This document shows, piece by piece, positions 29,931 through 34,429 of a stretch of DNA of 49,229 bases. Source of the stretch: Synechococcus sp. CCY 9618. Its GTDB lineage: Bacteria > Cyanobacteriota > Cyanobacteriia > PCC-6307 > Cyanobiaceae. Position numbers and translations under genes: made by a program. Where the stretch lies: NCBI RefSeq assembly GCF_019038415.1, contig NZ_JAFKRG010000059.1:1-49229 (forward strand), written 5' to 3'. The stretch's first letter is position 1; each line of letters starts with the position of its first letter. The notes under the pieces are model-generated. The model was not told where the DNA came from and ran no database searches. It was given only the letters and a program-made list of their open reading frames with translations.

Positions 29931-30362
29931 TCAGGCTTCGAAGGTCTCCTTGCCGCTGAACTTGAGGCTGGCGGGGTTGGGGTTGGCACCGATGCTGCGG
30001 GCCACGTGGCCGACCATCTCCCTGCCTTCGTTGACCTTCTCGGGGAAGACGCCGTCCTTGGGATGGAGGTACTCGGTGTCGCCGCCGGGGTAGATCCGGT
30101 AGATCTTGTAGTCCTCGATCCGGGGCTTGAACTTGGTGCGCAGCTGGGTGCCCAGGGCCAGGCACTGCTCCTTGCGGGCGAAATACATGAGGTTGTCGCC
30201 CTCGTGCATCTCGGCGGCACCGCCGGTGGGGAGTTCGAACACCTGGGCCTTGGAGCTGCTCCAGGTGATGGCGTACTTCTCCTCGGTTTCGGCGGAATTC
30301 AGCAAGCCACCGGTGCTGCCGATGGACTTCGGAAGTTGACCGTGGAGGGCCGTTTCGGGCAT
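29931..30362 (-). CDS. psaD: Photosystem I reaction centre subunit II
   Basis: 143 residues, full length. [20 protein letters not shown] starts the conserved core, and [35 protein letters not shown] and [19 protein letters not shown] follow as in all PsaD proteins. It sits on the stromal/cytoplasmic side of photosystem I and provides the docking site for ferredoxin. A strong terminator follows directly, so it is likely a single-gene unit. The upstream gap to the histidine kinase gene (108 bases) holds the promoter; CTAGCTT about 40 bases before the ATG is a possible -10. Confidence 0.98.
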
Positions 30363-30470
30363 GGCTCGCAGACCGTTTCAGCGGGAAGCTAGCACCGTGT
30401 TTTTGGCCATTCCGGGGTCTCCAGCGGAGTCTTCACACCCGTCAACAAACCCCCCCCACGCCCCTCGGCC

Positions 30471-31877
30471 TCAGCCGCTGCGTTCCGCGGCCGGGAAGAA
30501 GACCGTCAGGTTGCTGCCGCCCCGTTCCGTGAGCCGGCCTCCCAGGCGGTGAAAGAGGCGCTGGGTGGCCTGGCGGCTGAGCTGCAGGCTGCCGGTCTCG
30601 GGGTTCCAGCTGAGCACCGGTCCCACCGGGGTGGGAACGGCGGCGGCCAGGTCGTCGGCCACGCGGCTGTCGGGGTCGTCGCTGCTGAGCTGCAGTTTCA
30701 GCCGCGACCCTGCCGGCAGCAGCCGCAGCCGCACCTGGCTGCCGCTGGGCAGGCTGCGGCTGAAGCGGTCCATCAGACCCCCCAGCATGGTCTCCAGCTG
30801 GCTGGGGTCGCTCATCACCGGTGGCAGGTCGTCGGCGATCTCCATCAGCAGCTTCAGGTCCCGCCGGCCCAGCTGGCGCTGCCAGAGATCCTCCAGCTGG
30901 TGGAGCAGCCGGCTCAGATCCGTCCGGGCCAGTTCGCTTTCGCTCAGGGGCTGGCCGCTGCCGGGCTGCCGCTGCAGCTCCGCCGCCAGGAAGATCAGCC
31001 CGAAGCGGTCGATCTGTTCGCTGCACTCCCCGTCGATCTGCTCCAGCCGCTGGCGCACCACCGCCGGGAGGTCGGTGCGGCGCAGCAGGGAGCGGATCAG
31101 GGTGCGGATCGTGGCCAGGGGCGTGCGCACCTCATGGGTGAGGGCCTCCAGCAGGGCCAGTTCACTGCTCACCGCATCGTGGCTCTCGGCGGCCCGCTTC
31201 TCTCCGTGCACCAGGGGCTGCAGGGTGACGCTGGGGGCCATGGCGGCCAGCCGCTGGGCCAGCAGGGGCCAGAACCGGGTGCCCAGGTCCGGATCGTTGC
31301 TGAGCGGGCCCAGCAGCTGCAGCCGGCGTCGCAGCCCCAGGCTCGCGGCCGGATCGTCCTGGGCCAGGCGGCGATCGAGCATTTCCAGGGCCGCCGAGAG
31401 GATGGGGGCCTCGAACCGCACCACCAGCCGCCGTCCCTGGGGGGGGCCGTCGAGGGCCATCGCCACCTGCAGCACAGGGGTGATCAGCACCAGCAGGGGG
31501 TCGGTGCCATCGTCGTCCCGCAGGCTGAGGCGCCGGAAGCCCCCGGGCCGTCCCGCCGTTCCAGGGGGGGCGGGGCCGGGTGGACCGGGCAGGGGGGGCA
31601 TCCCGGGCAGCAAGGGCAGGCCCGCAGGCATCAGGTTGCCCACCTCGGCCGGCGTCCAGACCCAGCCGTCAAGCCACTCCAGCAGAGAGGGTTCGTAGAG
31701 GGCGGGCAGGGGAGCCGCCAGCCACACCCCCGGCTGGGGCGGGACGGCACCGAGGAGATCGTCCTGGATGATGGCCAGGGCGGCCCACCACAGGCGCCGC
31801 ACGCTGTCCTCATCCCCCCTGCCGGCCGGCGCACCCTCGGCCAGCAGCCGGCGCAGCCCCTCCAGACTCACCACCAT
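30471..31877 (-). CDS. Histidine kinase-like protein with degenerate ATP-binding domain
   Basis: 468 residues from ATG 31877. Residues ~1-240 form an uncharacterised sensor part with a Pro/Gly-rich segment. LLEALTHEVRTPLATIRTLI (near 275) is a normal H-box with the phospho-His. The ATPase half is eroded: the N-box position reads LETMLGGLMDRFSRSLP without the Asn, G1 reads SSDDPDSR instead of DxGxG, and G2 has no GxGxG before RLFHRLGGRLTERGGSN. Autophosphorylation may be lost or done by a partner. Its start overlaps the rodA stop by ten bases (ATGGTGGTGA), so it is coupled to a cell-wall gene. Confidence 0.8.
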   Translation of the reverse strand: MVVSLEGLRRLLAEGAPAGRGDEDSVRRLWWAALAIIQDDLLGAVPPQPGVWLAAPLPALYEPSLLEWLDGWVWTPAEVGNLMPAGLPLLPGMPPLPGPPGPAPPGTAGRPGGFRRLSLRDDDGTDPLLVLITPVLQVAMALDGPPQGRRLVVRFEAPILSAALEMLDRRLAQDDPAASLGLRRRLQLLGPLSNDPDLGTRFWPLLAQRLAAMAPSVTLQPLVHGEKRAAESHDAVSSELALLEALTHEVRTPLATIRTLIRSLLRRTDLPAVVRQRLEQIDGECSEQIDRFGLIFLAAELQRQPGSGQPLSESELARTDLSRLLHQLEDLWQRQLGRRDLKLLMEIADDLPPVMSDPSQLETMLGGLMDRFSRSLPSGSQVRLRLLPAGSRLKLQLSSDDPDSRVADDLAAAVPTPVGPVLSWNPETGSLQLSRQATQRLFHRLGGRLTERGGSNLTVFFPAAERSG

Positions 31878-33136
31878 TTGCGCAGGCTGCGGCTGCGCCG
31901 GGCTACCGAGGCGCAGAGACCGATGCTGATGCAGTTGACGAGCATGGCGGAGCGGCCGTAACTGAGCCATGGCAGCGGAATCCCCGTCACCGGCCCCAGG
32001 CCGATGGTCATGAAGATGTTGACCACCACGGCGAACATCAGCATGGCGCCGATGCCCACCACCAGCAGCGACTCCACGTCGGTGGCCGCATTGCTGGCGA
32101 TCTGCAGCAGCCGCCACACCAGCAGGGCAAAGCCCAGCACCACCAGCACCGAGCCCACGTAGCCCGTCTCCTCGCCCAAAGCGCTGAAGATGAAATCGGT
32201 GTGCTGCTCCGGAATGAAGCGCAGACGGGTGAGGGAGCCGTGCATCAGGCCCGTGCCCCAGAGGCCGCCCGAACCGATGCCCACCTTGCTCTGAAGCAGG
32301 TGATACCCCCCACCCAGGGGGTCCTTGGAGGGATCGAGGAAGAGCACCAGCCGGTCGCGCTGGTAGTCCTTGAGGCCGTGCATCCACAGCAGCGGGGTGA
32401 CCACCGCGAAGCCGCTCTCGACGGCGAGCACCACCACCAGGGCGATGCGTTTCCAGGGAAGGGAGCTCCAGGCCAGCCAGCCCATCAGGGGGATCCAGAC
32501 CAGCAGGCCCCAGGGCAGAACCCCCGCCACGATGGAGGTGATCACCGGGGAGAGCAGCAGCACCAGCCAGGCCAGGGGCATGCCGGCCCAGTACAGCATC
32601 ACCAGCAGCACGGCTCCGAACACCAGGGAGGTGCCCAGATCCGGCTGGATGAACACCAGAGCCCAGGGGGGCAGGATCAGCAGGATCGGGCGGACCAGGT
32701 CCACGGGCCGCTCCACCGGATAGCGGGAGAGAATCCCCGCCAGCAGGAGCACTGCGGCGAGCTTGGCGAATTCCGACGGCTGCACGTGGAAGCCGGCGAA
32801 GCTGATCCAGCGCTGGGCTCCGAGGGCGGAGGTGCCCACCACGCGCACGGCGATCAGACTGGCCATGGTGGCCAAATAGATCGGCCACTGGAAGCGTCGC
32901 AGCTGGTCCATGGGCAGCCGGGCCAGCAGCAGGCCGATGGCGAAGCCCACACCACCGGTGATCCAGTGCTGGTACCAGTCGGCATAGTCGGCCTGGCGCT
33001 GGGTGCTGGCGATCAGCACCCCGGCCAGCAGAGTCATGGCGATAGGGATGCCCCAGAGCACCGGGTCGAAGCCCAGGCCGCGCCGCTTGGTCCCCTTGGC
33101 GGCGAAGCCGGCTCGCCGAGGGCTGAGGACCGCCAT
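31868..33136 (-). CDS. rodA: Rod-shape-determining peptidoglycan polymerase RodA
   Basis: 422 residues with about ten membrane helices. LGAQRWISFAGFHVQPSEFA is the conserved glycan-binding loop, LVFIQPDLGTSLVFGAV and DRLVLFLDPSKDPLGGGYHL follow, and FIPEQHTDFIFSALGEETG plus GIPLPWLSYGRSAML complete the SEDS signature. RodA polymerises lipid II for side-wall growth with a class B penicillin-binding protein, not encoded here. A soluble N-terminal tail (MAVLSPRRAGFAAKGTKRRG) precedes helix 1. It starts 4 bases after mrp and overlaps the kinase gene. Confidence 0.95.
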   Translation of the reverse strand: MAVLSPRRAGFAAKGTKRRGLGFDPVLWGIPIAMTLLAGVLIASTQRQADYADWYQHWITGGVGFAIGLLLARLPMDQLRRFQWPIYLATMASLIAVRVVGTSALGAQRWISFAGFHVQPSEFAKLAAVLLLAGILSRYPVERPVDLVRPILLILPPWALVFIQPDLGTSLVFGAVLLVMLYWAGMPLAWLVLLLSPVITSIVAGVLPWGLLVWIPLMGWLAWSSLPWKRIALVVVLAVESGFAVVTPLLWMHGLKDYQRDRLVLFLDPSKDPLGGGYHLLQSKVGIGSGGLWGTGLMHGSLTRLRFIPEQHTDFIFSALGEETGYVGSVLVVLGFALLVWRLLQIASNAATDVESLLVVGIGAMLMFAVVVNIFMTIGLGPVTGIPLPWLSYGRSAMLVNCISIGLCASVARRSRSLRKWW

Positions 33137-33140
33137 CGCG

Positions 33141-34247
33141 TCAGGCGAGGGCCGGGCTGAGGGCGCAGCTGGCGATCAGCTGGCCGCTGAGCTCGGTGAA
33201 GGCACGGCCGCTGGCCGAACGCGGGGCGGCCAGCACCACCGGCAGGCCATTCTCGCCCCCTTCCAGAACGGGCATCTCCATCGGCAGCTGGGCCAGCAGG
33301 GGCACCCCCGCCTCATCGGCCAGCATCCGGCCGCCCCCGCTGCCGAAGAGGGCGTAACGGCGATCAGGCAGGTCGGGGGGGATGAAGGCGGTCATGTTCT
33401 CCACCACCCCAAGCACCGGCACGCCCATCTGCAGGAACATGGCCAGGCCGCGGCGGGCATCCTGCAGGGACACCTGCTGGGGCGTGGTGACGATGATGAC
33501 CCCGGCCATGGGCACGGCCTGGGCGAGGGTGAGCTGGGCATCGCCGGTGCCGGGGGGCAGGTCCACCACCAGCACGTCGCGCTCGCCCCAGTTCACCTGA
33601 TACAGAAACTGGCGGATGATGCCGTTGAGCATGGGGCCCCGCCAGACGACCGGCTGGTTCTCCTGGATCAGCAGGCCCATGGACACCATGGCGATGCCGC
33701 AGCTCTCGATCGGCTCGAGCACCTGCTCGCTGCCGCTGCCGCGCACCTCCGGACTGCGATCGGCCACCCCGAGCATGGTCGGGGCGTTGGGGCCGTAGAT
33801 GTCGGCATCCAGCAGGCCCACGCGCAGGCCCGCAGCGGCCAGGCCGCAGGCCAGGTTCACCGCAACCGTGCTCTTGCCCACGCCCCCCTTGCCGCTGCTG
33901 ACGGCGATGACCTGGCGCACACCGGGAATCCCCTGCCGTTCGGGCAGCTGCCCGCCGCCGGTCCCGTGGCCGGCGGCGCCGATGGGCCCCGACGAGGGGG
34001 CGGCGGCGGGCTGGGCCAGTTCGATCTGCACGTCATCGATCCCTTCGAGGGCCAGCAGGGAGTCGCGGGCTTCGGCGGCGATGCGCTCCCTCTGGCTGGC
34101 CGCGAAGCCGGGCAGAGCCAGCCGGAACACGGCCCGCTGCCCCTGCTGCCGCAGGTCGGTGATCCAGCCCAGCTCCAGCAGGCCGCGGCCGCTGCCGGCG
34201 TCGCGGAGCGGCTGCAGGGCCTGCTGGAGAAGGTCGGCACTGGCCAT
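33141..34247 (-). CDS. mrp: Mrp/NBP35-family iron-sulfur carrier ATPase
   Basis: 368 residues. An N-terminal DUF59-like domain (LLELGWITDLRQQGQRAVFR) is joined by a Gly/Pro linker to a deviant Walker A ATPase: VSSGKGGVGKSTVAVNLACG, LLDADIYGPNAPTMLG and VVDLPPGTGDAQLTLAQ. Family members carry 4Fe-4S clusters for delivery to target proteins. The C-terminal CxxC used by many relatives is replaced by RRYALFGSGGG, as in cyanobacterial homologues, so cluster binding must use other ligands. First gene of mrp-rodA-kinase, divergent from hemF. Confidence 0.95.
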   Translation of the reverse strand: MASADLLQQALQPLRDAGSGRGLLELGWITDLRQQGQRAVFRLALPGFAASQRERIAAEARDSLLALEGIDDVQIELAQPAAAPSSGPIGAAGHGTGGGQLPERQGIPGVRQVIAVSSGKGGVGKSTVAVNLACGLAAAGLRVGLLDADIYGPNAPTMLGVADRSPEVRGSGSEQVLEPIESCGIAMVSMGLLIQENQPVVWRGPMLNGIIRQFLYQVNWGERDVLVVDLPPGTGDAQLTLAQAVPMAGVIIVTTPQQVSLQDARRGLAMFLQMGVPVLGVVENMTAFIPPDLPDRRYALFGSGGGRMLADEAGVPLLAQLPMEMPVLEGGENGLPVVLAAPRSASGRAFTELSGQLIASCALSPALA

Positions 34248-34429
34248 TCGGCGGCGGCGAAGTCGGTACGAATGGCGATCCTAGGGGGGGCGTCCCAGAC
34301 CAGTCGGGACCCTGGCGACCCACGGCGGCAGCCGCGGCGGCCCGTGACAGAGGCTCTCGAACCCTTGTGAGCCGCCCCCGCGGGCTGAAATGGTGAGCCG
34401 ATGTTCCGCGTCCATCGCGCCGCCGTTCC

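Follow-up and report, generated by a model that had tools for sequence, protein, structure and literature searches.

A near-universal cyanobacterial histidine-kinase homologue without ATPase motifs, and its possible place in the Hik2-Rre1 pathway

Introduction

The histidine kinase Hik2 of cyanobacteria (also CSK, for chloroplast sensor kinase) phosphorylates the response regulators Rre1 (Ycf29) and RppA (PMC4751278). A 2026 review calls the redox direction of Hik2 unresolved and names Hik34 as a modulator (PMC13421787), while Rre1 has been called an orphan regulator that works with Hik2 and Hik34 (PMC9321951). Loss of Hik34 raises heat-shock transcripts and an excess lowers them, and recombinant Synechocystis Hik34 is reported in review to have autophosphorylated in vitro at growth temperature (PMC3264485). 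In Caulobacter, the protein ChpT joins a histidine-bearing DHp domain to an ATPase-like domain, and no ATP was observed in the latter (PMC3433190). Here we analyse a histidine-kinase-like gene (30471-31877, minus strand) on a 49,229-nucleotide contig of Synechococcus sp. CCY 9618 (NZ_JAFKRG010000059.1; the whole contig is called the window below), whose product resembles these proteins but has lost the ATPase motifs.

An original prediction, made from the letters of the window, had described the product as a histidine kinase with a normal H-box and an eroded ATPase domain, and had suggested, with the rodA overlap in view, that it may serve side-wall growth as a phosphotransfer or scaffold protein and not as an active kinase. 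With confidence a little above even, we favour a different placement, namely that the protein is an ATPase-dead sensor component of the Hik2-Rre1 pathway and does not belong to cell-wall growth.

Results

The gene and its presumed domains lie in the window as follows.

30471..31877, minus strand: histidine-kinase-like gene of 468 amino acids, presumably ATPase-dead; an open reading frame with a match at 1e-5 in 289 of the 299 genomes of the order
31230..31877, minus strand: N-terminal presumed sensor domain, residues 1-216, alpha/beta; predicted model with a pLDDT of 88.8
30963..31184, minus strand: DHp helices, about residues 232-305, with phosphoacceptor His248, Glu249 and Thr252; HisKA match and conserved columns
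30486..30932, minus strand: CA-like domain, roughly residues 316-464, lacking the N, G1 and G2 motifs; columns, profile alignment and fold

In a Pfam scan of the 468-residue protein, HisKA matched at 2.1e-6, above the Pfam cut-off, and no other family (no GAF, HATPase_c or DICT) appeared at E<=10. The same genome has 11 other places that match HATPase_c, and this gene is not among them. Alignment columns were counted for 50 order members, a set made non-redundant at 80%: HisKA matched in all 50, and HATPase_c was absent from the families listed at E<=1. The H-box is as normal as had been claimed, with H248 and T252 present in 50/50 and E249 in 49/50. In a profile alignment with kinases of a family whose ATPase motifs are intact, the N-box positions fall on G367 (50/50) and R371 (49/50, Lys once), and GxGLGL falls on T428-G-S-L-Q-L, with T428 in 50/50, S430 in 47/50 and Q432 in 44/50. 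Residues 400-417, where DxGxG is expected, vary among the members.

By pattern, neither DxGxG nor the N-box occurs in any of 109 members from inside and outside the order, which bears out the predicted absence of N-box Asn and DxGxG and answers the question whether orthologues with intact motifs exist at these positions: none was found. Any GxGxG was present in 4/109; all four belong to the order, and there Thr fills the aligned G2 column in 50/50. The same patterns detected DxGxG in 14, the N-box in 16 and GxGxG in 17 of 17 control kinases. Outside the order, the phosphoacceptor His and the Thr four positions after it are both kept in 35/35 members; left out of these 35 were L200-L205, which come from genomes without a true member and are ordinary kinases with intact motifs, and L199, which is split into two open reading frames.

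The predicted structure of residues 225-465 is a DHp+CA fold (model pLDDT 85.5) that matches DivL (Z 15.9, 221 aligned residues, root-mean-square deviation 4.8) and HK853 (Z 15.5). Since the H-box, the aligned columns and the predicted fold agree, a misreading is ruled out, and the gene product is an ATPase-domain homologue without its motifs. An intact H-box next to an ATPase domain of this kind also supports the earlier suggestion that the protein is probably no autonomous kinase.

The opposite view, in which ATP is still bound by some unusual means and the protein actively phosphorylates Rre1, has some evidence in its favour and is what the Hik34 literature would lead one to expect. The CA fold is retained, both outside members that were scanned give a weak HATPase_c match under the cut-off (0.013 and 5.2e-4), and recombinant Hik34 was reported to autophosphorylate in vitro (PMC3264485). 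However, the N-box and DxGxG are missing from 109/109 members, single glycine changes in G1 or G2 abolish the autophosphorylation of Hik2 (PMC4751278), and the equation of this protein with Hik34 is conjectural. We regard an active kinase as quite unlikely.

Upstream of the kinase-like part, the N-terminal domain (31230-31877) is predicted confidently and nevertheless has no confident match in the PDB, the best weak rows being TrmBL2 (Z 7.8, 121 aligned, root-mean-square deviation 3.2) and TrmB/PLD-like folds. A DICT identity was considered for this domain and rejected, as a profile comparison with DICT kinases aligned the DHp-CA part alone and no DICT family turned up in Pfam. The protein has no 19-residue window with a mean hydropathy as high as 1.6, compared with 85 such windows in the RodA control, so that no membrane-like segment was found by this measure.

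The protein is near-universal in cyanobacteria. The ten genomes of the order without a match are drafts with listed completeness of 86-96%; among the matches, G120 is weak (5.5e-6), and G271 and G253 score low and are perhaps fragments. In the class sample, a profile of the 50 members matched 283 of 291 genomes at 1e-10. Seven of these 283 matches are weak or doubtful (E 5e-11 to 1e-13; six in genus g50, one in f30), and both of those that were read, G313 and G355, proved to be ordinary kinases. No viral relatives came up in one scan that used the single protein.

Within the genus (16 loci, 118-120 pairs), the ratio of nonsynonymous to synonymous substitution rates (dN/dS) is 0.166 for the N-terminus, 0.065 for the DHp helices and 0.087 for the CA domain (118 pairs). 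We prefer these values to the cruder ones over all 50 members (0.40, 0.17 and 0.33), in which dS is saturated. The ATPase-like domain is under purifying selection and the gene is not eroding; distribution and dN/dS together reject a pseudogene. Hence, of the "eroded ATPase" in the original prediction, the loss of motifs stands, whereas the word "eroded" misleads, because a CA dN/dS of 0.087 does not describe a decaying domain.

Outside the order, the gene is found in some genomes in an operon that points to its pathway. In 14 of 60 outside genomes read, the next gene on its strand encodes a canonical kinase without sensor domain, and a response regulator comes after that: in 6/6 genomes of family f13, 7/8 of f4 and 1/1 of f29. 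The figure of 14/60 is no prevalence, because the 60 genomes consist of 36 plus 24 that were added once two cases were known, f4 and f13 supplying half of these 24. The operon kinase is short (stop-to-stop open reading frames of 213-350 amino acids) and has the H-box HQ[LM]RNP or HE[MVL]RNP. The regulator reads like Rre1 in the 8/14 loci that cover its LuxR end; in five f4 loci this end runs off the locus, and in L339 the frame is broken. The operons in L166 and L197 were checked by Pfam. Regions with the kinase and the Rre1/Ycf29-type regulator are the following.

L197, 2165-3491, plus strand
L166, 1479-3271, minus strand
also L329 and L342-L346

With a Prochlorococcus Rre1 (L247) as query, the operon regulators were the best match of the genome in G310, G301 and G351, at 53-54%. 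With a Hik2 query, the operon kinase was the best match in G310 and G301, other kinases being weaker. Outside the order, the protein is thus associated in the genome with Rre1 and its kinase in three families. The operon was not seen in the order of the window; in the genome of the window itself (G000), the Hik2-like gene (contig C19) and the Rre1-like gene are both found on contigs other than that of the window. As an observation apart, one outside locus (L337, 2130-3650, plus strand) has directly after the kinase-like gene a 507-amino-acid open reading frame that contains a receiver and whose end, judged by eye, resembles EAL.

The DHp helices tell a similar story. We took 18 residues that follow the H-box in the first DHp helix and compared them by the sum of their BLOSUM62 scores, and in 7/7 genomes the helix of the protein was closest to that of the Hik2-type kinase, a label that rests on the H-box and on likeness (L241 has no NCBIfam match at 1e-20). 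In four genomes with four kinases read in each, the Hik2-type kinase scored 28 against 2 for the next (Prochlorococcus G001), 28 against -2 (G007), 31 against 0 (G009) and 28 against -2 (G117). The scores were 22 against 6 in G003 (three read), 31 against 23 in G327, and 22 against 17 in the genome of the window (seven kinases read). Helices of the operon kinases scored 20-37 against the protein in five pairs; in the sixth (L339), the H-box of the protein was unreadable. Furthermore, the protein is nested within Rre1-bearing genomes, full-length Rre1 being present in 13/13 tested genomes that carry the protein (21 genomes tested) and the three genomes without Rre1 being without the protein as well.

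Prochlorococcus provides a minimal set of possible partners. In G001, six places match HATPase_c: SasA-, NblS-, PhoR- and Hik2-type kinases (named by likeness, the SasA type also by NCBIfam), gyrase B, and an unread 634-amino-acid open reading frame. Each of the six receivers of this genome belongs to a protein that also has an output domain, and none of the receiver matches falls within a kinase. Because there is neither a free receiver nor a hybrid kinase, a classical four-step relay has no donor in G001. Strain MED4 is credited with five sensor kinases (PMC2663038), and these presumably are the four ATPase-bearing types plus the protein described here.

This set bears on the idea that the protein is a histidine phosphotransferase of the ChpT/Spo0B sort, which would pass phosphate from a receiver to another regulator without ATP. 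The anatomy is alike, as ChpT, too, combines a DHp His with an ATPase-like domain that makes no use of ATP (PMC3433190), and the His is invariant (50/50 and 35/35). G001, however, has the protein and lacks a donor receiver, unless a full regulator serves as one. Furthermore, HisKA is the sole Pfam match at E<=10, although a weak or missing family match does not exclude such a relationship. We consider a phosphotransferase rather unlikely.

A partner was also sought among the Prochlorococcus regulators by elimination, which left the RpaB-like L244. It cannot be a general partner, because among 21 genomes it was found at 62% identity or more in three only (G000, 79%; G327, 68%; G358, 62%), and it was rejected. 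Two regulators of G001 exceed the NCBIfam cut-off for RpaB, L244 (367-1134, minus strand) and L246 (661-1410, plus strand). A third regulator of this genome, of the OmpR type (L249, 705-1445, plus strand), has a receiver that by eye seems to lack the acidic pair and the phosphoacceptor Asp (its start reads RVLVVEPHP), and is a possible pseudo-receiver retained in a minimal genome.

A further group of kinases with the architecture DICT-HisKA-HATPase_c was found at 1e-90 in 123/291 genomes of the class sample. We read 70 of them, listed here.

L253-L322, for example L176, 4646-6238, minus strand: DICT-HisKA-HATPase_c kinases

Their phosphoacceptor position holds Gln in 68/70, Glu in one and His in one, and their ATPase motifs are kept (second N-box Asn 70/70, DxGxG 68, GxGxG 69; first N-box position Asn in 49 and His in 17). 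A split kinase could be imagined, in which this His-less kinase would phosphorylate the His of our protein in trans. The lesions in these neighbouring genes are complementary, and the DICT kinase gene sits tail to tail with the kinase-like gene, no more than 2 kb away, in 11 genomes of seven families, out of the 85 in which both could be placed among the matches listed; in 8 more the two are within 27 kb, and in 55 they are on different contigs. Nevertheless, the DICT kinase (E<=1e-90) occurs in 0/36 sampled genomes of the window's order, such that it cannot explain the protein there. Its helix scores only 5-10 against the protein in four pairs, compared with the 20-37 of the Hik2-type operon helices, genes lying tail to tail are not co-transcribed, and the neighbour L254 has a His. 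A kinase split in this way is distinctly improbable in our judgement.

There remains the neighbourhood in the window, on which the original placement had been based. The adjacent genes are these.

31868..33136, minus strand: rodA, overlapping the kinase-like gene by 10 nt (TIGR02210, 3.6e-109)
33141..34247, minus strand: mrp/apbC-like gene, upstream of rodA with a gap of 4 nt
29931..30362, minus strand: psaD, directly downstream of the kinase-like gene with a gap of 108 nt (PF02531, 2.4e-71)

The ATG of the kinase-like gene (31877-31875; GTG at 31874 and 31871 are alternative starts) does lie within the end of rodA, whose stop is at 31870-31868, and the overlap that had been noted is real. A scan of 30300-34400 found no promoter- or terminator-like sites, which says little, because only 0.1 and 0.8 such sites are expected. 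Of 126 loci of the order, which include some genomes twice, 115 have a rodA that overlaps or abuts the gene, 8 have it at a distance of 78-117 nt upstream (by the starts chosen) and 2 farther off; in L027, no rodA match was found in the flanking DNA examined. In the 80% non-redundant set, rodA overlaps in 43/50. The psaD gene, which encodes a photosystem I subunit, is found downstream on the same strand, at most 400 nt away, in 126/126 loci, and the mrp/apbC-like gene is on the same strand in 114/126 and was not found in the DNA examined for the other 12. The neighbourhood in the order is as much photosystem I as cell wall. One of these loci (L101) comes from a record titled as a Bifidobacterium breve metagenome-assembled genome, probably a mislabelled bin, since it carries the cyanobacterial arrangement of rodA and the kinase-like gene.

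Outside the order, 36 loci that carry the protein (L164-L199) were examined with flanks of about 1-4 kb, and none of them had a rodA match. The protein therefore occurs more widely than its rodA neighbourhood, and linkage to rodA does not accompany it wherever it occurs. The idea of a scaffold or phosphotransfer partner of RodA in side-wall growth would account for the overlap or abutment in 115/126 loci of the order; against it stand the 0/36 outside, the equal linkage of psaD within the order and the lack of a membrane-like segment. The proposed tie to side-wall growth is unsupported, and we hold it to be very improbable. What does recur next to the gene in other families is a kinase together with an Rre1-type regulator.

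Discussion

What the protein retains is a sensor-like domain at its N-terminus, the dimerising helices, the His that accepts phosphate and the Thr at position +4, a residue that kinases of this class use to dephosphorylate their regulators. Its CA domain may have been reshaped for something other than ATP. Under our favoured reading, in which it is an ATPase-dead sensor component of the Hik2-Rre1 pathway, its DHp helices would most likely act on Rre1, and the protein probably tunes this stress and redox pathway. It might do so as a phosphatase that drains phosphate from Rre1, or as a heteromer with Hik2 whose kinase/phosphatase balance it would set; a direct contact with Hik2 or Rre1, the direction of the effect and the lack of ATP use are inferred. 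In the operon, the dead protein would supply a sensor to its partner, because the operon kinase has no sensor domain of its own.

Several observations weigh against this reading. In G351, the Hik2 query gave nothing at 1e-15, and 46/60 outside genomes showed no Hik2-type kinase and regulator after the gene, though many flanks were only about 1.5 kb long. The helix likeness rests on 18 positions; in the genome of the window the lead of Hik2 over NblS is small (22 against 17), and in G327 only 9/17 HATPase_c places had a readable H-box. Rre1 is present in 5/8 genomes counted as lacking the protein (four of g50, and G358) and can therefore do without it; the other three (G385, G394, G355) have receiver-length Rre1 matches only. 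Absence was judged by reading the best match for G313, G377 and G358 and from a weak hit only for G331 and G357. Finally, some ATPase residues persist outside the order, where the second N-box column has Arg in 20, Asn in four and Lys in three of 35 members, and the first has Gly in 25, Ser in 8, Asn in one and Glu in one. The three G2 columns there have Thr in 34/35, then Ser in 14, Asn in 7, Gly in 3 and others, then Ser in 31 and Gly in 2, such that Gly stands at two of these columns in 3 and 2 of 35.

It is possible that the protein has a name already. Tentatively, we suppose that it may be Hik34 (Synechocystis slr1285; the "Hik34-Rre1 module" of S. elongatus). In S. elongatus, hik34 is Synpcc7942_1517 and dxr is _1513. 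The gene order in L171, namely dxr, a pseudouridine synthase, a histidine-phosphatase-family gene and the kinase-like gene, would fit these numbers. A reckoning by chromosome distance, however, would put the locus number at about 1592, unless the region is taken to be inverted. If the protein is Hik34, the negative genetics of Hik34 fit a phosphatase or inhibitor, whereas the report of autophosphorylation speaks against an ATPase-dead protein, and with it against the reading we prefer.

A bolder version can be formulated, in which the Rre1 pathway would be run by a divided histidine kinase. The protein would be the subunit with sensor and His but without ATPase; the catalytic subunit would be a sensor-less DHp-CA kinase in Gloeobacter-like cyanobacteria and two other families, and Hik2 in most, with the His-less DICT kinase, able to act in trans only, added in more than a third of the sampled genomes. 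We think this unlikely.

If our placement in the Hik2-Rre1 pathway is true, the Rre1 proteostasis and redox pathway has an unrecognised third component, and one of the five sensor kinases of MED4 presumably is not a kinase. The operon gives Rre1, which is an orphan in print (PMC9321951), natural partners. In the accessible parts of the literature searched, mostly open papers, no mention was found of the operon or of the lost ATPase motifs.

Among known systems, Hik34 is alike in being soluble, in being said to act with Rre1 and in its negative effect on heat-shock transcripts (PMC3264485), and differs in that it is described as an autophosphorylating kinase. Hik2/CSK has the closest first DHp helix and belongs to the Rre1 pathway (PMC4751278, PMC13421787), but it has an Fe-S-cluster GAF sensor and an intact ATPase, whereas the protein has neither a GAF nor an HATPase_c match.

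With ChpT and Spo0B the protein shares a DHp domain joined to an ATPase-like domain. Its Pfam scan reported no family that matches theirs, and it differs from them in belonging to another phylum and in the absence of an upstream hybrid kinase in Prochlorococcus G001. In Spo0B, too, the ATPase-like domain next to the DHp domain does not use ATP. DivL and RetS, which are among the best structural and profile matches to the protein, are atypical kinases that act on another kinase; DivL lacks the phosphoacceptor His, which our protein keeps. CheA3 and CheA4 of Rhodobacter, lastly, are complementary halves. They are of the CheA type, not HisKA, and in our case the lead comes only from gene neighbours, but the principle is the same: one partner that brings the His and one that brings the ATPase.

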